The notes under the pieces: generated by a model | What the model was told of the DNA's origin: nothing | The model's database searches: none | Seen by the model: the letters and a program-made list of their open reading frames with translations, nothing else | Shown: positions 53,250-64,000 of the stretch, in pieces | Layout of the letters: every line of letters begins with the position of its first letter | Position numbering within the stretch: position 1 is the first letter of the stretch | Program-made: the position numbers and the translations under genes | Source: Anaerorudis cellulosivorans | Lineage (GTDB): Bacteria > Bacteroidota > Bacteroidia > Bacteroidales > Dysgonomonadaceae | DNA length: 64,000 nucleotides | Direction of reading: 5' to 3' | Assembly: GCF_025943985.1 (NCBI RefSeq) | Contig: NZ_JAPCWE010000007.1 | Coordinates: 1 to 64,000, forward strand

Positions 53250-53281
53250 TTTGTTTTAAAATACGAAATTTTTTACCTTTG
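53250..53281 (+). promoter_or_regulatory. promoter of tRNA-Gln
   Basis: TTTG at 53250-53253, 20 nt, TACCTTTG at 53274-53281; the tRNA begins 14 bp later. Textbook Bacteroidetes spacing. Confidence 0.65.
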
Positions 53282-53294
53282 CACTTCGAAAAAT

Positions 53295-53365
53295 TGTCCT
53301 ATGGTGTAATGGTAGCACAACAGATTCTGGATCTGTTTGTCTTGGTTCGAATCCAGGTAGGACAG
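53295..53365 (+). tRNA. tRNA-Gln (CTG anticodon)
   Basis: Complete cloverleaf of 71 nt: acceptor TGTCCTA / TAGGACA, D stem GTGT/GCAC with loop AATGGTA, anticodon stem ACAGA/TCTGT with loop TTCTGGA (anticodon CTG, reading CAG), four-base variable loop, T arm CTTGG-TTCGAAT-CCAGG, discriminator G. CCA is not encoded. The sequence after it is AT-rich and defence-related, so the gene marks the left border of an island. Confidence 0.97.
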
Positions 53366-53376
53366 CAACCCTTACA

Positions 53377-53411
53377 AATAACTGCTTAATATTTAGGCAG
53401 TTATTTTTTTA
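53377..53411 (+). terminator. rho-independent terminator of tRNA-Gln
   Basis: AATAACTGC (53377-53385) pairs perfectly with GCAGTTATT (53397-53405); seven T follow from the end of the stem. Confidence 0.9.
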
Positions 53412-53458
53412 TAAAAGACAATTAAGTTATTGTGGCCTTGATTTTTATTTTCGCTCGC

Positions 53459-53489
53459 TTGGAAATACTTTAATTTTCGTGTACTTTTG
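53459..53489 (+). promoter_or_regulatory. promoter of the DUF488 gene
   Basis: TTG (53459-53461), 20 nt, TACTTTTG (53482-53489). The ATG at 53494 would lie at or next to the transcription start, so the message may be leaderless. Confidence 0.5.
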
Positions 53490-53493
53490 TTGT

Positions 53494-54378
53494 ATGTATT
53501 ACAGACGTAAAGTTATATTGGCTTTATTACAGCTTTTTGATGGAGAGTTAAATAAAATCAGTCTTCAGAAATTGCTTTTCCTGTTCTCGCATCGGCAAGT
53601 GAAAGCAGAATATGATTTTGTTCCCTATAAGTATGGATGTTATTCTTTTTCGGCAAACGCCGATTTGTCGGTAATGGTAAAAGGAGGAATATTATCGGAA
53701 ACCCCTACTTCCTTTGTAATAAATGAACGTGCTGATTATGTGCAAGCATTGAAGAAAGATGACCGGAAACTGATGCAGGAAATAAAACAACAGTTTGGGA
53801 AAATGAACGTAAATGCGCTGATGAGGTATACTTACCTTCATTTTCCTTATTGGGCGATAAACAGTAAAAAAGCAAAGGAAATATTATCGGCGGAAGAGAT
53901 CCAAAAAGTTAACGAGAGTGAACCCAGTAGTAAAAAAATTGCCCTTTTTACCATTGGTTATCAAGGGATTTCTTTGGAAAAATATTTGAATCGTTTGATC
54001 AAAAACAACATTAAGGTATTAGTGGATGTGCGATACAATCCCGTAAGTATGAAGTATGGTTTTAGCAAAAGTCAGTTACACTATTATTGCGAAAATCTGG
54101 ATATCCGATATGTTCATTTTCCCGAAGTAGGTATTGCGTCGGCGCAACGCAGAACGTTAAATACCCAGGAAGATTATGACAAGTTGTTTGCTTCCTACAA
54201 GCAGAACAATTTAACCAAAACCGTAACCACACAAATGCAAATATTCAACTTGCTAAAACAGTACAAACGCATTGCATTGACCTGTTTTGAAGCCAATATT
54301 TGGCAATGTCACCGTAAATATTTGGCAGAAGCCATTGAAAAATTACCCGGTTTTGAATACGAAATCAAACATTTGTAA
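53494..54378 (+). CDS. DUF488 protein with an N-terminal DUF4065/SocA-like domain
   Basis: 294 residues from ATG 53494 (MYYRRKVILALLQLF); a GTG 15 bp upstream is within the promoter. Residues about 1-130 (ISLQKLLFLFS.., DFVPYKYGCYS) resemble the Panacea/DUF4065 domain found in toxin-antitoxin and phage-related proteins. Residues about 150-294 are DUF488: LFTIGYQGISLEKYL, VLVDVRYNPVSMKYGFS and the late ALTCFEANIWQCHRKYLAEAI with conserved Cys/His. Activity unknown. Its usual partner gene, directly downstream, is broken. First gene of the tRNA-linked island; lower GC than dgkA. Confidence 0.8.
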   Translation: MYYRRKVILALLQLFDGELNKISLQKLLFLFSHRQVKAEYDFVPYKYGCYSFSANADLSVMVKGGILSETPTSFVINERADYVQALKKDDRKLMQEIKQQFGKMNVNALMRYTYLHFPYWAINSKKAKEILSAEEIQKVNESEPSSKKIALFTIGYQGISLEKYLNRLIKNNIKVLVDVRYNPVSMKYGFSKSQLHYYCENLDIRYVHFPEVGIASAQRRTLNTQEDYDKLFASYKQNNLTKTVTTQMQIFNLLKQYKRIALTCFEANIWQCHRKYLAEAIEKLPGFEYEIKHL

Positions 54379-54380
54379 AG

Positions 54381-54699
54381 ATGGCCCTGACAAAAGTTTT
54401 AGTTACCGTGAAAACATACCCTACCCTTTCCTGCAAATATGAAGAATTGGTTTGTACTGCCGGATTTCGCGAAGACGGCTCTTGGGTTAGAATTTATCCG
54501 ATTCAGTTTCGCAAAAAATCATACGACCAACAATACAAAAAATACGATTGGATAGAAATTGATCTTAGATTTTGCAAAGAAAAAAGATTTGTATTTTTAT
54601 TTAGGAACGTCTCAGATCTATCATTTCAATTCATATAATCCATTTATGATTATTGGAACATTTCACCCTCCCTTCGATAGTCAACTATCTTTTTTCTGA
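54381..54699 (+). pseudogene. DUF488-partner protein, broken by internal deletion and frameshift
   Basis: The start MALTKVLVTVKTYPTLS, CTAGFREDGSWVRIYPI and YDWIEIDL are the conserved N-terminal part of the ~220-residue protein often encoded next to DUF488. After that the frame runs to a stop at 54638, but another frame continues KKDLYFYLGTSQ, YHFNSYNPFMIIGTFHPP and ends with TGA at 54697-54699. These are, as I recall them, the family's C-terminal blocks. About half the middle is missing. Starts 2 bp after the DUF488 stop. Confidence 0.65.
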
Positions 54700-54739
54700 T
54701 TCTGATTTAAGGATATCCCAATCGGCTTGTAACTCTTCG

Positions 54740-54964
54740 GTTGAGGGTAAATTACAGGAAAATGCAACTTGTAAGGATTTCTTACAAGTTCAAACCGAAG
54801 GCTCCCGTAAAGTCGAAAAACTATTATCCAATGCAGGAAGCGTCAGTCATCGGCAAGTTATAGACAAAGCTAAAGACGAATTTCGCAAATACCGGCTCAA
54901 AACGTTGTCTCCGGTAGAAAAAGCCAATTTTGAAAGTATCAAAGCTGTTCTGAAAAAAAATTGA
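54740..54964 (+). pseudogene. fragment of a RhuM family protein
   Basis: The frame reads VEGKLQENATCKDFLQVQ.. TEGSR, which matches the N-terminal part of RhuM (virulence RhuM/COG3943) proteins. It then jumps to KVEKLLSNAGSVSHRQVIDK and YRLKTLSPVEKANFESIK, which are the C-terminal blocks (G-x-x-S-H..A..E-x-x-x-Y..). The ~200-residue middle is absent. RhuM genes typically sit inside type I restriction loci, and an HsdS relic follows at once. Confidence 0.65.
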
Positions 54965-55129: not shown

Positions 55130-55160
55130 TTGGAAATCAAAATATAATTATATATTTTTG
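55130..55160 (+). promoter_or_regulatory. promoter of the SusD-like chimeric lipoprotein gene
   Basis: TTG (55130-55132), 20 nt, TATTTTTG (55153-55160); ATG 75 bp downstream. Confidence 0.55.
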
Positions 55161-55234
55161 TGAATCATGTAATTTTTTTCAATTGGTGTAAAAACATACA
55201 AATAAAATATAATTCTTTTTACTCTGCAAAAGAC

Positions 55235-57445
55235 ATGAAAAAATTCACTCTTTTTTTAACGTTGATCTCTTTTCTTTTTGTGGCTTCCTGCTCCGATAAA
55301 GAAGATGAGGAATTGATTACACCGAAATCTTCCGTTGAAATTAAAGGGAAAGTGGAGAAGGGTCCTTTCGTTAAAGGATCGGAAGTCAAACTCTACGAGC
55401 TCGACAACTCGCTCAAACAGACGGGTGTAAATTACACGACACGAATAATAAGCGATGGAGGCGATTTCGATTTTGGCGAATTGGAGGTATCTTCTTCTTA
55501 TGTTTTGTTGACTGCCGACGGATACTATTTTAACGAAGTGAGAGGTGAGCTCTCTGAAGGACAACTCTCGCTCGATGCACTCGTGGATGTGTCGAAGCAG
55601 CAGGATATCAATGTAAATATTTTGACACACCTTAAAAAAGAGCGTATTCTCACGTTGATCAAAGAGGGAAAATCTTTCAAGGATGCAAACAGACAGGCTC
55701 AGCAGGAGTTACTCACCTGCTTTGCTTTACAAGAGTATGCCGATAAAGATGCGAGTACCTATTCGATAACGGCCGGCACCGATGAGGCAGCTGCGTTAAT
55801 TGTAATTTCATCAATTGTATTGGAGGACAGATCGGATGCGGAGGTTACGGAATATCTTATGAGGTTGAGTGAAGAATTTAAAAACACCGGAACTTTTTCC
55901 GATGAAGTCAAGGCTGAAATACGGGAAAAGAGCATGCAATTATCTTTTGAATCGATTGAAGATCATATCATCGAACGATATAGCGAGCTTGGTAAAACCA
56001 TAGAAGTAAAAGACTTGAGTTATTATGTGGACTGGGATGGCGATGGCATTGCCGGCAATGAATTGGGCGATCCTGATCAGGAAAGAATATTGCGTTTCGA
56101 AACCGATACGCTGCATGTAGCTGCTGCCGGAGGAAGATATGAAGTGAAGATAGAGACCAATATTCCTTTTTCAGACCACCTTCCTCCCACTCTCAGAATA
56201 CCGGGAACTATTATTGTAGATAGTAGAGATTTATTTAAAATCGGGAATATTAAATGTACCGCATCTATTGAGAGCGACCGTCTTATATTGAATGTTGAAC
56301 CGGCAGAATCAAGAATAATGAACGATACCACTTTCACTATTTACAGTATGGATGGCAAAACTTCTTCCCAACTGGTTCTTGTGCAGGAGGGAGATCCCAA
56401 TAAACCGTTGGAACTGACTCAACGGGGAGAAGATATTTTGGCAACTTTCTGTTCTAAAGGAAGGGATGCAATGAATGATTTTCATATTCTCGATGCTTTA
56501 TACACCCAACTTTTTTCCTATGGTTCGAAAACTGATTGGAAACCGATATATGAACATCAAGTAAACGGAACTAATTTTCTAGTTTCCGCTACTTGGGCAA
56601 AAAGTTATCAAGCAATTGCAGCATTACGTCAGTTGAAAAATGCTTTTCAGTCTGAACCGTTATTGTATACTTCTTTTGCCGTACTGGAATCGATGTTTTA
56701 TTACGAAATGGCCGTTTGGTGGGGTAATGTGGTATATGTAAGTCCTGAGGTGAGTGATGATATAACTATTTCCCTTCCTCAGATGAAGATAGATGAACTT
56801 TTTGCCCTTTTGGAAAGTGATCTTCGAAAAGGAATTCAATTGTTACCTGCCGACAATATATCTTTTGACGCCATGCAGGCTTCCTCTTACTTATTTTATT
56901 CGAACACTGTACCCAAGACAATTTTGGCAAAAATGTACATGTATCTTGGAAAATACGACAAGGCATATCCTTTGTTGACGCAAATTATTCAAAGCGGCAA
57001 GTATACCCTCAGCAATTCGAGAACGAATGCCTTATCTTTAACGAGTAAAGAAATTATCTATGCATTCAAACAAGATCCGCAAAGCGATTATAGTCGCTAT
57101 ATCGAATCGACGGATATTGTTCCGACTCTTTTATATTCCGAGGTCGTCATGTTGGCCGCAGAATGTGCTTATCGTCTTGGCAATAATGGCAAAGCAGTAA
57201 ATTATTACAATAAGATGGCTGAAAGCAGAGGAGCTGCCACCATCTCCTCCACAACGGATTTCATGTCCGCCATGTTATCGTTGTGGAAAAACGAATTAAA
57301 AGGGACGGGCACTTATTTTGCTTTTCTCAAACGCAATAATTTGGCCGAAGAAGTATTGAATATTCCTGCTTACAAACAGTTGTTGCCGATTCCGGAAAGT
57401 GAATTGATGCGGAATCCTTATTTGGTACAAAATCCGGAATATTAA
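55235..57445 (+). CDS. chimeric lipoprotein with BACON-like and SusD-like regions
   Basis: 736 residues from ATG 55235 (MKKFTLFLTLISFLFVASC), the only start giving a lipobox (V-A-S-C). Residues about 30-100 form a beta-rich domain (VEIKGKVEKGPFVKGSEVKL), about 100-270 are helical, and about 290-390 look like a BACON/immunoglobulin-type domain (LHVAAAGGRYEVKIETNIPF). From about 415 to the end the sequence behaves as the TPR-like half of a SusD: WAKSYQAIAALRQLKNAF, TILAKMYMYLGKYDKAYPL, VVMLAAECAYRLGN and the terminal LLPIPESELMRNPYLVQNP. There is no SusC partner. Surface-exposed binding protein is inferred. Own promoter present. Confidence 0.75.
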   Translation: MKKFTLFLTLISFLFVASCSDKEDEELITPKSSVEIKGKVEKGPFVKGSEVKLYELDNSLKQTGVNYTTRIISDGGDFDFGELEVSSSYVLLTADGYYFNEVRGELSEGQLSLDALVDVSKQQDINVNILTHLKKERILTLIKEGKSFKDANRQAQQELLTCFALQEYADKDASTYSITAGTDEAAALIVISSIVLEDRSDAEVTEYLMRLSEEFKNTGTFSDEVKAEIREKSMQLSFESIEDHIIERYSELGKTIEVKDLSYYVDWDGDGIAGNELGDPDQERILRFETDTLHVAAAGGRYEVKIETNIPFSDHLPPTLRIPGTIIVDSRDLFKIGNIKCTASIESDRLILNVEPAESRIMNDTTFTIYSMDGKTSSQLVLVQEGDPNKPLELTQRGEDILATFCSKGRDAMNDFHILDALYTQLFSYGSKTDWKPIYEHQVNGTNFLVSATWAKSYQAIAALRQLKNAFQSEPLLYTSFAVLESMFYYEMAVWWGNVVYVSPEVSDDITISLPQMKIDELFALLESDLRKGIQLLPADNISFDAMQASSYLFYSNTVPKTILAKMYMYLGKYDKAYPLLTQIIQSGKYTLSNSRTNALSLTSKEIIYAFKQDPQSDYSRYIESTDIVPTLLYSEVVMLAAECAYRLGNNGKAVNYYNKMAESRGAATISSTTDFMSAMLSLWKNELKGTGTYFAFLKRNNLAEEVLNIPAYKQLLPIPESELMRNPYLVQNPEY

Positions 57446-57924
57446 CGGGAGAAGTAAATGCAGCATCGGCAAAGTACAGATGTGCTCACTACCGAAAAGG
57501 TGAGCATATGCGATTATGATCCATTGGAAGCCATAATGAAGATAATGATGACAAAATACATTGTGACAATGGACGAGGTAATTTTTTGTGTTTATCTTAT
57601 ACTCAAAGAAGAATAATCAAATCGATAGAACCCAAATAAAACGGTTATATTTCAAAATGGAATGTTCTTTCTACCTGACAAGCAGCTATATTACTTCTCC
57701 AGCAAACGTGATGGATATCTCCAAAATTTTCCCAAAAGGGAACTTGCATGATAAAGCAATAACCAATAAAACAAAATATAATCAAATTGCAAATTATACC
57801 TAACAAAACCCTTTTAGCAGATATTTTTTCGTCTGACATATCTCATTTTGGGTAATAAAAAAATTAACTATGGTTTGGAATAAAGACACAAAACAAATAC
57901 ATAACATGCAATTATTGAAAATTA
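57446..57924. other. AT-rich spacer between the lipoprotein gene and vsr
   Basis: A 7-bp hairpin (TGCTCAC 57483-57489 with GTGAGCA 57500-57506) without a T-run lies soon after the lipoprotein stop and may end its transcript. Apart from a possible small minus-strand gene (57645-57839) nothing else is recognisable. Confidence 0.4.
57645..57839 (-). CDS. possible small membrane protein
   Basis: 64 codons starting MSDEKISAKRVLLGIICNL with one hydrophobic span (about 11-32), then a soluble tail. Composition is protein-like and the N-terminus fits a small single-span protein, but no relative is recognised and no clear ribosome site is seen. Confidence 0.25.
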   Translation of the reverse strand: MSDEKISAKRVLLGIICNLIIFCFIGYCFIMQVPFWENFGDIHHVCWRSNIAACQVERTFHFEI

Positions 57925-58365
57925 ATGGATATTTGGGATAAGAAAAAACGATCAGAAGTAATGTCGAAGATTCGCTCAAAGAATACCAAGCCAGAGATGA
58001 CATTACGCAAAGCACTCTTTGCTAGGGGGTTCCGTTTTCGTGTGAATGATAAAAGATTTCCCGGAAAACCCGATATAGTTTTGCCAAAATATAAAACGGT
58101 GATTTTTGTGCATGGATGTTTCTGGCATAGACATGAAGATTGTCAATATGCCTATATTCCAAAAACTAATACTGATTTTTGGGTTGACAAAATAAATTCA
58201 AATGTCGAAAGGGATAAAAAGAATGCTGAAAAATTAAGTGTACTTGGCTGGAATGTCTTGACAGTTTGGGAATGTGATATACGACACACATACAAAAATG
58301 ATATATCACCACTAATCGATTCAATTGTAAATAAGATACTTGAAAACCATTCGAGAGAAACTTAA
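57925..58365 (+). CDS. vsr: very-short-patch repair endonuclease Vsr
   Basis: 146 residues, full length. Vsr nicks DNA at T:G mismatches arising from deaminated 5-methylcytosine. The N-terminal MDIWDKKKRSEVMSKIRSKN with T-K-P-E, catalytic-region FPGKPDIVLPKYKTVIFVHG (about 47-66), CFWHRHEDC zinc-binding block and WNVLTVWECD are present. Vsr genes accompany cytosine methyltransferases, none of which is in the window; one is expected beyond the right edge. Convergent with the AIPR gene (68 bp between stops). Confidence 0.95.
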   Translation: MDIWDKKKRSEVMSKIRSKNTKPEMTLRKALFARGFRFRVNDKRFPGKPDIVLPKYKTVIFVHGCFWHRHEDCQYAYIPKTNTDFWVDKINSNVERDKKNAEKLSVLGWNVLTVWECDIRHTYKNDISPLIDSIVNKILENHSRET

Positions 58366-58433
58366 ATGAAGTTTTGAGTGGATCAGGAAAATGAAAAATC
58401 GAAGGATTCGGATGTTCTTATATATATAAGATT

Positions 58434-60770
58434 TTAATCAATCGTAAAACCGTGTTTTTTCAATATTTCAAGATTCTTCCTGCAACCCCATGCATATCTG
58501 TCGTTTAGCGGGTATTTACCGTTAACAATATCATTCATCACTTTCCATTGCCAGTCTTTAAGAATACGCCGGCGTTTATCCCATTCAACCATTTTCTTTA
58601 CCAATTCAATGGTAATTCCATGATCGGAGTCCGCTTTTTCAGCATCTGTATCTGGCTCTTTTGTTGAATCCGTGAGTTCATCAGCCTCAGAAAGCAAATC
58701 AATATTGTGTTCACAAACTATTTCATAAATAATCATTGCTTTTTTGCGATTAATATCTGAAATTTCCCGATTGTATTTTACAGCGTTTGCCATATCAAAG
58801 CTTGCGAATGACTGCTGATTTATAGAAAGAAATCCACTATCCTTACCCCATTGTTCTATTTTTTTCCAAAGTGCATAAGGTATTGAGCGTAATAATGAAA
58901 TTTCATAGTTCTTTTGTAAGGTATTCTCGTCAATATCATCGGCAATAGATTTTCTTTTCAGCAATTGTTCTTCCGTCGCGAAATCAGCTTTTATACTTTC
59001 ACTATCCAAAATCCAACTTTGTTTTTTTACAGTTTCCCAGCATTCTTCCTTTTTTGCCCATTCAATATAATGTGAACTTGGTGAATTCTGCAAAATAAAA
59101 TCATTTAGCTGTTTCATCAACGAGTAAAGAACAGCAGCCAATTCTTCAGAAATGCTCTGATTTTTCCAGATTTTTTCCAAACTCAATTTGTAATCAGTTA
59201 GATACCCTAATAATGCGATAGCATATGGAACGACAGCATTACGCATTTCGCCAATATTATTTGGCTTTATACCATACAATCTTTCCGCTTCACGAAATAA
59301 TATGAATTTTGCAATTACATCTTCAAAATATACACCTGTAACTTTCTTTGGAAGGTTTTTGGCAATAAATTGTGCATAATTTTTTTCATTACCACGCACA
59401 ACCACGTTCGGGCCAATCACCAATTTTTTACCTTCGTAGACTTCGTTATAGGAATTGACAAATTTAGCCAGATCCGTCTTCTTAAACATTTGTTTCCTTG
59501 GGTATTTTAAATCAAATTGTTTTTGACGGGCTTTTGTAAAACCATCGCGTAAACGCAAATTTCTATACTGCCCGTTAGCCCGTTCAAAGAACCAAATTGT
59601 AGGAATAGGATTTTTTACTGAAACAGGTGAAAATGACCGTCGGGAAATTTTTTCCAATTCAATGAGGATTTCATTATTTGCTGAAAAGTCAGCATCATTT
59701 ACTTTATTTTGAGTGTTGGCATATTTTGAAATCTCTGATACAATTGTATTGTATGATTCGATTTTTTTTATAACTGATATTTTCATCTGGACGAAAATAT
59801 TCGAAATGTCAGCTTTATCCTTATCCCATGTATGATAGATTGAAGCAGTTGTTTGACCTCCATTCACAATTTGCAGGTTGCTGATTTTATTTATATAACG
59901 TCCCGTTTCATCCAATTCAATATAATCTGCTGTTGCAGCAATACCGTTGTTGTACGCCAGAAACATATGAGGCAATTCATTGATGGTTCTACGGATACCT
60001 TTATTTATTTTTCCGGTAAATTGGAGAAATGACCTTACGTTTTGCTCCAATAACCGTGATCCAAATTGTTTATACAGCATAGCCAATCCTTGCCCCGGCA
60101 TTATAGCAATATAAGATTCGTAATCTATATTTTCCATCGGCGCTTTCAAACAGGGAATCAGGATGTTCATTTCTTCAAAATCCAATTCGATAGGTATATG
60201 GGACTTTTCAGATATAGTATAAAGCCGGTTTATATCAAAAACGTTATAGTAAATATCCTGGCCTGCTACTTTTCCCTGTTTGGGAATCTCTCCATTGTAA
60301 ATTCCATTTGTCAAGATAATTGCCTTAACACGCACAAGCATTTCTCTTAATTCGGATAGCTGAGCCAAATCATGAGCAAACTGAAAAACCGGCGAGGTTT
60401 CTTCTATTTCTTTCGAATAGTCATTGTAAAACGCTTTGCGAAAAAAATTAGTAACGCGCTTTGCAGCACGATCTATTTCATCCTTTGAAATACGACCTGG
60501 AGTGTCGCTGTTTTGAAAAATAGAAATGAACAAACATACTTCCTCATAATTGTCTGAAATGCTATACCCGTTAATTTTATGCTGTTTTTTTGTACCCAGC
60601 TCTTTTTCATCATAAGCTGGCGTTGCGTTTTCGGTTTCCCCCGCTTCCGCAAGTATTTCAATAGCTATTTGTGTAAAAAGCTGTTCTTGTGTTTCTCCTT
60701 CTTCCGAGGTGCTTTGCATTGCACGAATATCCTGCAATAGCAAGGTGTAATATTTTTCTATTTCATTCAT
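58434..60770 (-). CDS. AIPR family (abortive infection phage resistance) protein
   Basis: 778 residues, cytoplasmic. The AIPR core lies around residues 180-560. It contains NVFDINRLYTISEKSHIPIE, the family-typical NVRSFLQFTGKINKGIRRT, FLAYNNGIAATADYIEL and the ISNLQIVNGGQTTASIYHT block (about 285-305), then VKISVIKK-like IFVQMKISVI. The C-terminal 200 residues have no recognised domain. AIPR proteins occur in phage-defence operons; the mechanism is not established for this group. The ATG overlaps the stop of the PD-(D/E)XK gene by four bases (ATGA), so the two are translationally coupled. Last gene of the operon. Confidence 0.9.
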   Translation of the reverse strand: MNEIEKYYTLLLQDIRAMQSTSEEGETQEQLFTQIAIEILAEAGETENATPAYDEKELGTKKQHKINGYSISDNYEEVCLFISIFQNSDTPGRISKDEIDRAAKRVTNFFRKAFYNDYSKEIEETSPVFQFAHDLAQLSELREMLVRVKAIILTNGIYNGEIPKQGKVAGQDIYYNVFDINRLYTISEKSHIPIELDFEEMNILIPCLKAPMENIDYESYIAIMPGQGLAMLYKQFGSRLLEQNVRSFLQFTGKINKGIRRTINELPHMFLAYNNGIAATADYIELDETGRYINKISNLQIVNGGQTTASIYHTWDKDKADISNIFVQMKISVIKKIESYNTIVSEISKYANTQNKVNDADFSANNEILIELEKISRRSFSPVSVKNPIPTIWFFERANGQYRNLRLRDGFTKARQKQFDLKYPRKQMFKKTDLAKFVNSYNEVYEGKKLVIGPNVVVRGNEKNYAQFIAKNLPKKVTGVYFEDVIAKFILFREAERLYGIKPNNIGEMRNAVVPYAIALLGYLTDYKLSLEKIWKNQSISEELAAVLYSLMKQLNDFILQNSPSSHYIEWAKKEECWETVKKQSWILDSESIKADFATEEQLLKRKSIADDIDENTLQKNYEISLLRSIPYALWKKIEQWGKDSGFLSINQQSFASFDMANAVKYNREISDINRKKAMIIYEIVCEHNIDLLSEADELTDSTKEPDTDAEKADSDHGITIELVKKMVEWDKRRRILKDWQWKVMNDIVNGKYPLNDRYAWGCRKNLEILKKHGFTID

Positions 60771-61762
60771 ATAGATTCAATTGTATTCAAAACTGACATT
60801 TCATCAACTAAATAGTCATTGCAATGAGAAAGGATAATAGAATACCTTACATCGCCCACTCCGTTACGAATTTCTTTTTCCTTGATACGAGGAAATTCAC
60901 CATCTATTCTGTAATAATTTTCATTACGAATTTGATAACATCTTTCATCGTACAAATAGGCATGTTTTTCAAAATAGCCGGCTTCTAAAAGTTTTTTATT
61001 GAAAATATTTAAAAACATAATATCATTTTTCAGTGACTCACGAATTAAATTTATCTTGAAATTCAAATTTTCTCCGTTTTTCTTTGCTACTTCAACAGAT
61101 AAGTGAAACAAAAACAGGTTTTTCAGCATTGTTTCATCCAATTGTCTTTCGTTGTTTATATTAACTTTCTGGTGGTTATTCCCTGAGGTAGTTTTAACTT
61201 CTACAGCCCAATCATTATACTGAAAATCCCTTATCCCTTTTTCTGTACCTACCCATGAATTGAGGGCAAGAATAATATTCTGTTTGGCGATAAGCTTCTG
61301 TAAAAAATGCAATTCTCCATAAAGTCCCTGCTGTTCATAAAAGGTCAGTCCATCTCCTTTCATTTTTTCGAAAAGACTTTGCCACTTTTCGAGTTGATTT
61401 AAAATTGTTTGCACAACTTGTTTTTCTGAATGTAAAGTTATTACGGACTGCACCATATTTTCGCACATTACCGCAAAAACGTCACGGTTTTCATATTGCA
61501 AAAGTTTAATTATAAGCATATTATTTTTGAAGAAGGAAGTGTCAGGCTGCAGTGATACTTGTAAATCTCGTAAATTGGAAAATGATAAAATATCTACGTA
61601 AATATCTTTACTGAACGATAGAGCAATTCCACAGTATTTTTCAGGATTTTGAAAAATTCCATAAATATGTAATTCAGTTTCACTTGTATAAAGTCGCTTC
61701 AATAATCCTGTTTCATTTGTTTGCTCTATATTCGACCATATATCCAATATATTATTCATCAT
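60767..61762 (-). CDS. PD-(D/E)XK motif protein (DUF4420)
   Basis: 331 residues from ATG 61762 (MMNNILDIWSNIEQTNE); a longer frame to 61816 lies inside the Z1 gene. DUF4420 features: FYEQQGLYGELHFLQKLI (about 140-157, with the conserved G-x-x-G-E-L), NSWVGTEKGIRDFQYNDWAVEVKTTS (about 170-195), where D-F...E-V-K is the nuclease-like PD-(D/E)XK core. The core looks complete (acidic D, E-x-K). A DNA-cutting role is inferred from the motif. Overlaps the Z1 stop by several bases at its 5' end and the AIPR start at its 3' end, so all three are one coupled unit. Confidence 0.88.
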   Translation of the reverse strand: MMNNILDIWSNIEQTNETGLLKRLYTSETELHIYGIFQNPEKYCGIALSFSKDIYVDILSFSNLRDLQVSLQPDTSFFKNNMLIIKLLQYENRDVFAVMCENMVQSVITLHSEKQVVQTILNQLEKWQSLFEKMKGDGLTFYEQQGLYGELHFLQKLIAKQNIILALNSWVGTEKGIRDFQYNDWAVEVKTTSGNNHQKVNINNERQLDETMLKNLFLFHLSVEVAKKNGENLNFKINLIRESLKNDIMFLNIFNKKLLEAGYFEKHAYLYDERCYQIRNENYYRIDGEFPRIKEKEIRNGVGDVRYSIILSHCNDYLVDEMSVLNTIESI

Positions 61763-64000
61763 CTTCCAAATTATCGTTATTTTCCTCAAAATCAACTTCA
61801 GATTGATAATATTCATTTGTCAATGCTGTATTGATTGCATATTCAACTGTATGTTCCAAATTACTTTTAGGAAAAACGATAGCGAGGCCAATTATCACAT
61901 CATCTTCAGCATTGAAAATTATTTTTTCAGGAATTGGTTCGCTTGTTTTGCCTTTTTTCGGGTTTGCTCCAAGTGGATCCAATGGATAAATAATCAATAA
62001 GGGATTGTTCACACCTCTGAATTTTTCTCTTACAATCTTTGGCTTGGGATATGGTTTTTCCCAATCCTTATCTTGTAAAGATATTTGCAAAGCCTTTTTC
62101 AAATCGTCTGGATCAATATCAATTAATTCATCGGTCGGACTAACTATATGATTTTTTTTGATAATATATGTATCTGTATCTCCTGCTGTATTACGAGTAA
62201 AACATCCAACTGCAATCTGACTTGATAATTCAAATCTTTTTACAGCAGTGGTTTTGTTCATTAATGCAACCCGCCACGATTGAAGTTCATTATTTTGATT
62301 AAGTTTGCGAATGTAATTGCTGATTAAAGTTAAATTAACTTTATTTAGTTCAGGAGCAACTTTAAATTCAGAAAAGAATTTGAAAATATCTCCAGGCGAA
62401 ACATCTACCCAAAGATAATTCATGTTTAACTTTGTAAAGGAATTGCCTAATTTTGATAAAAATGTTTTTGTAGTATTCAAATTTTTGTGAATGATATCTT
62501 TATCTGTAGGCAATTTATATGTTTCGACTAAACTTCCAGACCATGAAACTTTAATTTTGTCTACATTACGCATTTTTGTTATTGCTGTAACTTGCAATTG
62601 CCCCGGATGTGTACGAACTTTTAAGGCATATTTTTCGGGTGTGGCTTTAGCAGTCCACATTAAATCAAATTCTTCACGCAAATCCTCACTTGCCATTGAA
62701 ATATGCCTAAACCACTCGTTCAACTCGCTGCTTGTGAATAAACGGCATAAATCAACATATCCAGGCCTATATCCAAACCAGCGTCCCATTTGCATCAATG
62801 TATCATACATCTTTGAAGCGCGTAAAAAGTAACTTACAGATAATCCTTCCAAGGTTAATCCTCGTGAAAGTTTGTCTCCTCCAATAGCTATTACTGAAAT
62901 ACCATTTTTATCATTTTCATAATATTCCAAAGCATCATCAGACATACCATTTATAGACATCACTTTTATTTTCTGAACAGCTCCGTACAAACATGGTTTT
63001 ATCTCTTCCCATGAATGTATTTCCATTTTGTTGTCTATATCTTTAAATGAAGAATTAAGAATATTTTTGGTTGTTGTACAATATGAGATATAATCGTTGG
63101 TATCTATTTCAAAAACATTCCTAAATTGTTCAAGGATATCTCTGTCTTCTTGTTCAATACCACGTTTATAATAATTGAATAATTTTTCAACCAAATCTTT
63201 CAGTGAATTTTGCCACTTCAAATAACGCGTAACATGTATAAGCATTGAATTGTGCTTGTTTCCCTGCCCACGTGCAATTCGGATAGCACAAGTAACGATA
63301 AAACACTTTATAGCAGTTTTTAACGATTCAGGCAATTCTGTTGGAGTTGGATCATTCTTTTTATGTCTATCAGGAAAATATTTACCGTAATCATCAATTT
63401 TTCGAACAACAGGTAACAAATCATCATTATTTTCATCAGCTTCAAATGAAATACCAAAAATTTTTTCTGGACCTATATAATTACTAGGTGCAGGCAAGTT
63501 TATTATAAAATCTCTTGGAAATAAATCATCCTTTTCAAGTGGAATAAATATATTTGCAAATGGCGTAGCAGTATAACCAACATATGCAAAACGATAAAAA
63601 TGATTGGTAATTTTCCGAATCCAGCCATTTATCGCAGTTGGTGATTCATTAGCTTTATTTGTATTGATCGAAGCAATATCTGCTTCATCATCAATTATTA
63701 AAAGTGATTTGTTTATAATTTTCTTTTCACCATTAATTTCTCGACATTGTGAGAGAAGCCAAGTGTTAAGTCGTCTCAGAACAGTAGAATTTTTCTTTAC
63801 TACTAGTAATAAAGGATTTTCTATGTCAAAACTAATACCCAAACTGTCTGCTAAAGATTTTTTAAAATCAGACTTAATCGTTGTAATTGAAATGGCAGTG
63901 TTATTATTATCCATCACTCCAACACCAATTCTGTTTGTCCCATTTGTTTGCCAAGCCCGCTCGTGTTGTGTATCAAAGCCTAAAAAATCCTCGTCAAGAC
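61752..64000 (-). CDS. Z1 domain ATPase/helicase-like protein (5' end outside window)
   Basis: The frame is open from the right edge (..LDEDFLGFDTQHERAW) through to the TAA at 61754-61752; a GTG at 63917 is not the true start because the upstream frame continues in the same style. About 749 residues are visible. SF2-helicase features: Walker B SLLIIDDEADIASINT, motif III-like VGYTATPFANIF, and the Z1 domain with GGDKLSRGLTLEGLSVSYFLR and MGRWFGYRPGYVDLCRL (arginine finger region). The Walker A part should lie in the missing N-terminal ~150-200 residues. Z1 ATPases are found in MZA-type and MutL/MORC-linked restriction-like defence loci. Confidence 0.92.
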   Translation of the reverse strand, partial: LDEDFLGFDTQHERAWQTNGTNRIGVGVMDNNNTAISITTIKSDFKKSLADSLGISFDIENPLLLVVKKNSTVLRRLNTWLLSQCREINGEKKIINKSLLIIDDEADIASINTNKANESPTAINGWIRKITNHFYRFAYVGYTATPFANIFIPLEKDDLFPRDFIINLPAPSNYIGPEKIFGISFEADENNDDLLPVVRKIDDYGKYFPDRHKKNDPTPTELPESLKTAIKCFIVTCAIRIARGQGNKHNSMLIHVTRYLKWQNSLKDLVEKLFNYYKRGIEQEDRDILEQFRNVFEIDTNDYISYCTTTKNILNSSFKDIDNKMEIHSWEEIKPCLYGAVQKIKVMSINGMSDDALEYYENDKNGISVIAIGGDKLSRGLTLEGLSVSYFLRASKMYDTLMQMGRWFGYRPGYVDLCRLFTSSELNEWFRHISMASEDLREEFDLMWTAKATPEKYALKVRTHPGQLQVTAITKMRNVDKIKVSWSGSLVETYKLPTDKDIIHKNLNTTKTFLSKLGNSFTKLNMNYLWVDVSPGDIFKFFSEFKVAPELNKVNLTLISNYIRKLNQNNELQSWRVALMNKTTAVKRFELSSQIAVGCFTRNTAGDTDTYIIKKNHIVSPTDELIDIDPDDLKKALQISLQDKDWEKPYPKPKIVREKFRGVNNPLLIIYPLDPLGANPKKGKTSEPIPEKIIFNAEDDVIIGLAIVFPKSNLEHTVEYAINTALTNEYYQSEVDFEENNDNLEDDE

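Follow-up and report, generated by a model that had tools for sequence, protein, structure and literature searches.

A complete methylase-bearing MZA-like (MORC-Z1) cassette, probably a restriction-modification defence system, in Anaerorudis cellulosivorans

Introduction

Which kind of system is encoded at the right-hand end of the first 64,000 bases of contig C7 (NZ_JAPCWE010000007.1, 141,728 bp) of Anaerorudis cellulosivorans, and what might it do for its host? This stretch (bases 1-64000), referred to here as the window, comes from a genome of 2.82 Mb in 38 contigs, and near its end a vsr gene faces a run of minus-strand genes for AIPR, DUF4420 and Z1 proteins which continues past the last base. 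Extension of the contig and comparison with related loci suggest that these genes probably form a complete, intact and apparently acquired restriction-modification (R-M) defence cassette of a methylase-bearing, MZA-like (MORC-Z1) kind. The identity of the system is hardly in doubt and an anti-phage role appears very likely, while the division of labour among the six proteins is offered as an evenly balanced proposal. Systems of this kind are already in print (Iyer 2008; Miller 2022); the points on MzaA, on methyltransferase exchange and on the architecture of the AIPR protein are added here.

Organization of the cassette

The cassette contains vsr and five operon genes, and all six frames are open from end to end:

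57925-58365, plus strand: vsr, 146 aa; converges with the 3' end of the operon, with 68 bp between the two genes
58434-60770, minus strand: AIPR protein (MzaE-like), 778 aa; Pfam AIPR 1.5e-90, AIPR_N 3.3e-41
60767-61816, minus strand: DUF4420 PD-(D/E)XK protein (MzaD-like), 349 aa as called; Pfam 1.8e-78
61752-64541, minus strand, leaving the window at 64000: Z1 superfamily 2 (SF2) ATPase/translocase (MzaC-like), 929 aa; Pfam Z1 3e-82
64534-66006, minus strand, beyond the window: MORC-family GHKL ATPase (MzaB-like), 490 aa; HATPase_c_3 1.3e-31
66010-67323, minus strand, beyond the window: C5-cytosine methyltransferase (MTase), 437 aa; Pfam C5 DNA methylase 2.3e-64

Read along the minus strand, the operon order is C5-MTase, MORC, Z1, DUF4420, AIPR. 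The MTase stop lies 3 bp from the MORC start, the Z1 gene overlaps both the MORC and the DUF4420 genes, and the DUF4420 and AIPR genes are joined by a 4-base ATGA junction. Judged from homologues, the DUF4420 protein probably starts at an internal MMNNI near 61760. A preliminary description of the window had reported the Z1, DUF4420, AIPR and vsr genes, the tight coupling of the first three and the convergence of vsr; the four genes were recovered as open frames with Pfam matches at those places, coupled and oriented as described. It had also expected a GHKL ATPase and a C5-MTase gene past 64000, to be sought by hidden Markov model searches within about 5 kb upstream of the Z1 gene; on the extended contig both genes were found there, with the matches listed above.

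The MTase translation contains the motifs GGPPCQ, ENV and QHRQR, scores 184 bits against TIGR00675 (cut-off 100.65) and matches the PADLOC models DrmMII and MTase_II, of which DrmMII is the best. The Z1 protein (PADLOC MzaC, 1.9e-176) shows the motifs GQVQSGKT, DDEAD and DTLMQMGRWFG, with D580, L582 and Q584-R592 invariant among 14 aligned sequences. Among 14 aligned MORC proteins (PADLOC MzaB, 4e-110 for the protein described here) N39, the DxGxG and, within the S5 motif, G277, Y279, Y281, R282 and R285 are invariant. The S5 motif GFYVYRGKRLM fits the pattern GhXhhpXXRhl strictly at 10 of 11 positions, with M where L, I or V is asked for, and a profile comparison with solved structures ranks human MORC3 first (1.5e-9), against 4.1e-5 for the first MutL. 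By both measures the GHKL ATPase is of the MORC type; the preliminary description had called it MutL/MORC-type, and its GHKL part is retained while MutL is corrected to MORC. In the DUF4420 protein (PADLOC MzaD, 3.1e-25) E168, D197 and E206-x-K208, forming an E-D-ExK set, are invariant in 14 of 14 aligned sequences, and the AIPR protein matches PADLOC MzaE at 3e-81. Apart from those taken from the 2008 description discussed below, the motif names of the MTase, Z1 and GHKL proteins follow general knowledge of these families.

On its profile matches (Pfam 1.2e-36; TIGR00632 150.6 bits, cut-off 97.85; the PADLOC Vsr model) the vsr product is a very-short-patch mismatch nicking endonuclease. It resembles Escherichia coli Vsr (1cw0, 1.4e-35), with PD...VHGCFWHRH here and PD...THGCFWHHH there. 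Elsewhere in the same genome, on contig C13 (L189:1544-3241), a single 566-aa frame matches the Vsr model (108 bits) as well as C5-MTase models and looks like a fused Vsr-methyltransferase.

Comparison with described systems

The locus was classified by PADLOC protein models and NCBIfam models. In the available text of Iyer, Abhiman and Aravind (2008; PMC2292703) a third type of MORC operon is predicted from gene neighbourhoods, without experiment, in which a Z1-type SF2 helicase and a restriction-endonuclease-fold protein are often accompanied by DCM, VSR and AIPR. The features given there all have counterparts here: the helicase motif DThhQXuRhFG (DTLMQMGRWFG in the Z1 protein), a neighbouring restriction-endonuclease-fold protein with E-D-ExK (DUF4420), the MORC S5 motif (GFYVYRGKRLM), and the frequent cytosine methylase and VSR genes, both of which are present. 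Signature motifs and partner genes are alike, and as far as the available text of that paper extends nothing essential differs. The accessible part of Miller et al. (2022; PMC9523054) presents a 'Type II' putative defence system of Z1, PD-(D/E)XK, cytosine MTase and AIPR proteins with an associated MORC, and with mzaA in few cases; its Z1 protein has 925 aa, compared with 929 here, and the PD-(D/E)XK, C5-MTase, AIPR and MORC proteins occur in both. The transcriptional regulator associated with that system in the same part of the paper was not seen here, though no model search was aimed at one.

The mzaABCDE (MZA) system, reportedly described by Gao et al. in 2020, is said to contain a sigma-like MzaA in its canonical form. 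Homologues of MzaB, MzaC, MzaD and MzaE lie in one operon here too, whereas the position of MzaA is occupied by the C5-MTase. The sole match of the MzaA model in the whole genome, a 290-aa frame at C17:30730-31491 aligned to model positions 411-667 of 683, is probably an ordinary sigma factor. With no MzaA, and with the NCBIfam cut-offs missed (MzaB 413 of 850 bits, MzaC 711 of 1500, MzaD 136.5 of 420, MzaE 346 of 1050), membership of canonical MZA was ruled out. The MZA-type label of the preliminary description holds as regards the PADLOC matches to MzaB-E and Vsr and fails as regards the canonical system; on its gene content and motifs the locus is an MZA-like, methylase-bearing form of an already described family.

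Two further candidates were rejected. The CglI/NgoAVII R-M systems, in the text available (PMC4267653), combine a Z1-containing SF2 ATPase and a C5-MTase with a PLD-B3 nuclease; the first two are shared with the present locus, which instead has the DUF4420 PD-(D/E)XK protein plus MORC and AIPR, and no PLD-B3 Pfam domain was found in the six proteins at E values up to 0.001. The DrmMII match of the MTase raised DISARM class 2, and no DrmA, DrmB or DrmC was found among the nine proteins of the site that were scanned. These three partners define DISARM.

Distribution and gene order

Of 393 genomes sampled from the order, 13 encode the MORC protein, as do 5 of 101 from the family; both counts include the present genome. 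For locus comparison, the best 80 of at least 563 confirmed loci were taken from a profile scan of named genomes and examined with gene models built from the order-level set; the 80 come from Bacteroidota, Pseudomonadota, Actinomycetota, Cyanobacteriota, Chloroflexota, archaea and others. All four core genes are present in 65 of the 80, and since the MORC-Z1-DUF4420-AIPR order and strand are the same in every one of the 65, their linkage is more than chance. Flanking genes were compared in 47 loci with four core genes, at least 3 kb upstream and at least 2.5 kb downstream; of the 33 uncounted loci, 15 have an incomplete core and the other 18 have flanks that are too short, and L148 and L149, both among the 47, are identical to each other. 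Of the 47, 46 have a C5-MTase, which in 27 cases immediately precedes the core on its strand.

Two variant arrangements were observed. In L120 and L128, where no DUF4420 or AIPR was recognised, MORC and Z1 are separated by gaps of about 2.1 kb and 0.5 kb, and the effector genes may have been replaced. In L195 an AIPR gene (634 bits) lies beside a C5-MTase gene on the opposite strand, with no MORC, Z1 or DUF4420 matches in 17.5 kb, an apparently simpler AIPR-MTase arrangement.

Association with Vsr

Vsr was found in 29 of the 47 comparable loci and never without an MTase. As a control, 20 stretches around C5-MTases of the order were hand-picked, mostly from the high-scoring end, out of 62 matches in 29 of 60 genomes, with known MZA loci left out; Vsr was found in five of them, in one case fused to the MTase. 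Two control stretches with an AIPR or Z1 match nearby (L195 and L201) gave no Vsr match. The difference has a Fisher's exact p of 0.008, or 0.007 without the duplicate locus, in a test which ignores relatedness and takes its control from one order, with a control reach of about 8 kb per side compared with 10 kb and five control stretches shorter than 13 kb. The preliminary description had regarded the presence of vsr as evidence for cytosine methylation as part of the system, and these counts support it; they also show that the MTase is often, but not always, accompanied by Vsr.

The 10-row tree clade that includes the present locus contains eight others with DNA past AIPR, the nearest relative, L078, being cut off. 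In these eight, Vsr converges with the operon in L033, L081 and L082, lies on the same strand in L079, L089 and (weakly) L088, and was not found in L084 and L086. Compared with the present locus, L033, L081 and L082 are 75-81% identical in MTase, 75-76% in Vsr and 60-62% in MORC; for L033 alone the values are 81%, 75% and 62%.

Exchange of the methyltransferase

Pairwise identities were correlated among the loci that encode all five proteins and have the MTase gene immediately upstream (41 loci, 40 without the duplicate). In the 40 loci the core proteins correlate with one another at rho 0.86-0.93 and the MTase with the core at 0.24-0.36 (0.85-0.93 and 0.23-0.35 in the 41). The core-core values were never attained in 300 permutations, the MTase-core values in 0 to 2 of them. 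By this measure the MTase follows the core, but weakly. In the 59 pairs with MORC identity of at least 60% (55 without the duplicate), the median MTase identity is 0.62 and 0.68 in two bands, and in 10 of these pairs, involving L093, L102, L147 and L041/L129 and representing about four events, it falls below 40%. These figures suggest to us that the MTase is replaced now and then while the core is conserved; part of the weak correlation is due to saturation at low identity.

A core module for target recognition that changes with the MTase was sought by 30-residue windows in 136 pairs with Z1 identity of at least 50%, one duplicate locus included, of which 29 were MTase-swapped (below 40%), 97 MTase-conserved (at least 50%) and 10 intermediate and left out. 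No window stood out clearly, the largest relative drops being 0.10 at AIPR 151-180 and 0.08 in MORC and DUF4420, with a spread of about 0.03-0.04.

Position of the MzaA-bearing form

With 1200 bits for PADLOC MzaB, 2309 bits for MzaC and a 697-aa sigma-like protein directly upstream, Enterobacter locus L145 is, on these scores, the canonical MZA form and the best match seen. It is also the sole MTase-less locus of the 47, with no MTase match in its 21 kb. A tblastn search with its MzaA returned nothing from L002 and found relatives in seven of 97 loci (L145, L146, L150, L152, L155, L156 and L157, the last a match of only 40 residues at a contig edge). In a MORC+Z1 tree of 82 rows these seven, all from Pseudomonadota, form exactly one clade with a support of 100 in the Shimodaira-Hasegawa-like approximate likelihood ratio test (SH-aLRT). 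An MTase is present in six of the seven (weakly in L156, at 57 bits) and Vsr in six. Within the loci examined, MzaA thus appears to have joined once, in one branch, whose 'derived' status depends on midpoint rooting and on a tree made quickly, with support values of a single kind.

Predicted architecture of the AIPR protein

The AlphaFold2 model of the AIPR protein has a predicted local distance difference test score (pLDDT) of 85.8 and a predicted template modelling score (pTM) of 0.62 over the whole chain, and 89.2 and 0.82, respectively, for residues 196-600, the core model. Fold assignments come from a VIA second look alone, which cannot show folds that Foldseek missed. In VIA-align comparisons, the folds matched by residues 1-190 are those of restriction endonucleases: AF1548 (Z 9.6, 114 residues, 3.1 Å), FokI (Z 9.2, 149 residues, 3.9 Å), MspJI (Z 8.6, 126 residues, 3.2 Å) and HamA (Z 7.9, 154 residues, 4.2 Å). 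AF1548, whose title calls its function unknown, presumably belongs to the restriction-endonuclease fold class. The first 11 rows for the core model are all ParB, PadC, sulfiredoxin (Srx), BrxU or SspE, the best ParB-like match (Z 6.4, 99 residues, 3.3 Å) covering model residues ~12-172, or AIPR ~207-367; Z scores below 8 are no more than suggestive, and more weight falls on how uniform the list is. The C-terminus is predicted to be helical.

The usual D...ExK is missing from the nuclease-like domain. Of the 37 sequences counted, 32 have N and 5 have S at position 67; D occupies position 79 in 34, with C in the present protein, and F occupies position 81 in 35. The second domain has a nearly invariant NGGQTT, with N303, G304, Q306 and T307 invariant in the 37. 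It resembles DGQQR/DGQHR, the motif of the ParB/Srx superfamily in the available literature, and lacks the arginine which that literature gives as required in SspE. The AIPR protein is therefore predicted, from its model, to be a degenerate nuclease-fold domain joined to a ParB/sulfiredoxin-like domain; a link to DndB is in keeping with the ParB/Srx assignment. One paper states that AIPR proteins are HEPN ribonucleases; for the present protein the model, with strands in the ~207-367 domain, does not support this.

Insertion site

The cassette (57549-67634, 10,086 bp) is part of a larger insertion and is flanked on both sides by the 3' end of a SusD-like gene:

53295-53366, plus strand: tRNA-Gln, left edge of a 15.5-kb insertion whose right edge is the groEL side from ~68914, beyond the window
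56859-57548, plus strand: left direct repeat, comprising the 3' end of a SusD-like gene that is itself intact (55160-57445) and a further 103 bp
67635-68197, beyond the window: right repeat, a decayed 3' fragment of the same SusD-like gene, frame broken and ~126 bp shorter

The two repeats match at 92% identity over 365 bp and at 96% over 215 bp. The G+C content of the cassette is 33.5%, against a mean of 43.7% (standard deviation 2.1, minimum 39.3%) in 27 windows of equal size. In the congener G002 the flanking tRNA-Gln and groEL genes lie ~93 bp apart, so the 15.5 kb was inserted here; its SusD-like orthologue, with two in-frame stops, lies on another contig, and the genome gives no MORC match. 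The corresponding interval of G001 is filled by ~11.6 kb of different DNA with an apparent istA/istB transposase pair, judged solely by its translations; across the stretches compared (L073-L076 among them) the tRNA-Gln to groEL interval looks variable. In G091 and G092 ~5.3 kb separates groEL from a tRNA-Gln of anticodon ttg, not ctg, and the site may differ. Comparison of 53280-53480 with 67000-69200 for att-like repeats gave a longest shared exact word of 10 bases, and no integrase was noticed among the open frames of the island, for which no model search was made. Relatives of the MORC protein occur in 31 plasmid and 3 phage records (E up to 1e-20), all below 60% identity. The cassette was apparently acquired.

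Other remnants lie on the same island. Beside tRNA-Gln, at 53479-54964, an open DUF488 gene (PADLOC PDC-M19A, 3.3e-125) is followed by a PDC-M19B gene that matches over its first 63 residues only and by a RhuM (PDC-S05) remnant, together a candidate second, broken defence locus. Decayed RhuM-family pieces in the same orientation occur at both ends of the island (54653-54964 and C7 68379-68825).

Proposed function and alternatives

Gene content and order, foreign composition, insertion at a variable site, and the preservation of catalytic motifs in the MTase, MORC, Z1 and DUF4420 proteins are read from the sequence; the functional steps draw on relatives and on knowledge of the families. The C5-MTase would mark host sites, and Vsr would repair the T:G mismatches that arise by deamination of the 5-methylcytosine made by the MTase. 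Unmarked incoming DNA would be engaged by the MORC ATPase, as a clamp or by looping, the latter being proposed for MORC in the available text of Iyer et al. (PMC2292703), and by the Z1 ATPase, which would translocate in the manner suggested for its CglI/NgoAVII counterparts. In CglI, according to the accessible text (PMC4267653), the Z1 protein dimerises through Z1, its ATPase is active with the R-protein on unmethylated sites and coupled to cleavage, and the hydrolysis rates were judged by the authors to be consistent with translocation. The DUF4420 PD-(D/E)XK protein is the likeliest nuclease and would cut the DNA, and the AIPR protein may serve as a nucleotide-binding regulator or DNA-binding part, not as the main nuclease. 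A literature search found no mechanistic study of this kind of system; the primary MZA paper was outside that search.

Several observations weigh against reading the locus as one R-M cassette. The NCBIfam MZA equivalog models match with less than half of their cut-off scores, and the Z1, DUF4420 and AIPR profiles give no significant match to Protein Data Bank sequences. For the AIPR protein, Foldseek returned no match at E ≤0.001 with either the whole or the core model, and the fold matches are middling, the ParB-like one reaching the Z of 6.4 given above. L108, L116, L120, L128 and L137 have no recognisable DUF4420 or AIPR despite several kb of downstream DNA, which speaks against a universal core; with 18 of 47 loci lacking it, Vsr is optional. 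The MTase co-varies weakly with the core, and the 30-residue window search identified no site-specificity domain in the core genes.

Alternatively, the MTase and Vsr could be an independent solo Dcm-Vsr pair, next to a four-gene core that is a self-sufficient MZA and senses something other than missing methylation, perhaps acting by abortive infection via AIPR. The gap between core-core and MTase-core correlations is in keeping with such independence, as are the variable position and strand of the MTase and the absence of an MTase match around the Enterobacter MzaA locus. Yet the MTase is kept in all but one of the 47 loci, its correlation with the core exceeds chance in the permutations, and in close core pairs it usually tracks the core, as the two median identities show; at the present locus its stop codon almost abuts the MORC start, and the MTase and Vsr of L033 are closer to those described here than its MORC is. 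We regard an independent pair as unlikely. A Type IV-like system, in which the core attacks foreign-modified DNA, the ParB/Srx-like domain of AIPR acts as in GmrS/SspE and the MTase is unrelated or a counter-signal, seems more improbable still: the first 11 VIA neighbours of the AIPR core are all ParB/Srx/DUF262 proteins, including BrxU and SspE (Z 4.3 each), and NGGQTT recalls the superfamily motif, but the arginine essential in SspE is missing, the Z scores are below 8 and the MTase is nearly always present. Type IV systems, to our knowledge, need no cognate MTase.

Within the reading as an R-M cassette, which remains the probable one, a bolder version may be ventured, tentatively and with more doubt than trust. 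The quartet would be a restriction engine without a fixed target of its own, using exchangeable C5-MTases as self mark; the sigma-bearing MZA would be one branch, in which MzaA was gained a single time and the MTase can be lost; and AIPR would be no HEPN ribonuclease but a nucleotide-gated switch of the ParB/sulfiredoxin type, fused to a dead nuclease fold. Our trust in this version was lowered slightly because the MTase-core correlation, weak as it is, is still above chance.

The comparison adds to the described family that the MTase is a near-constant partner, exchangeable under a conserved core, and that the methylase-bearing family, as sampled here, is larger than the named MZA, which forms a single proteobacterial branch within it. 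The predicted two-part AIPR would link that protein to nucleotide-gated restriction proteins. In the available text of Iyer et al. (PMC2292703) bacterial MORC proteins are relatives of the eukaryotic MORC proteins, and given this kinship a working MORC-methylation defence system would make a useful model.

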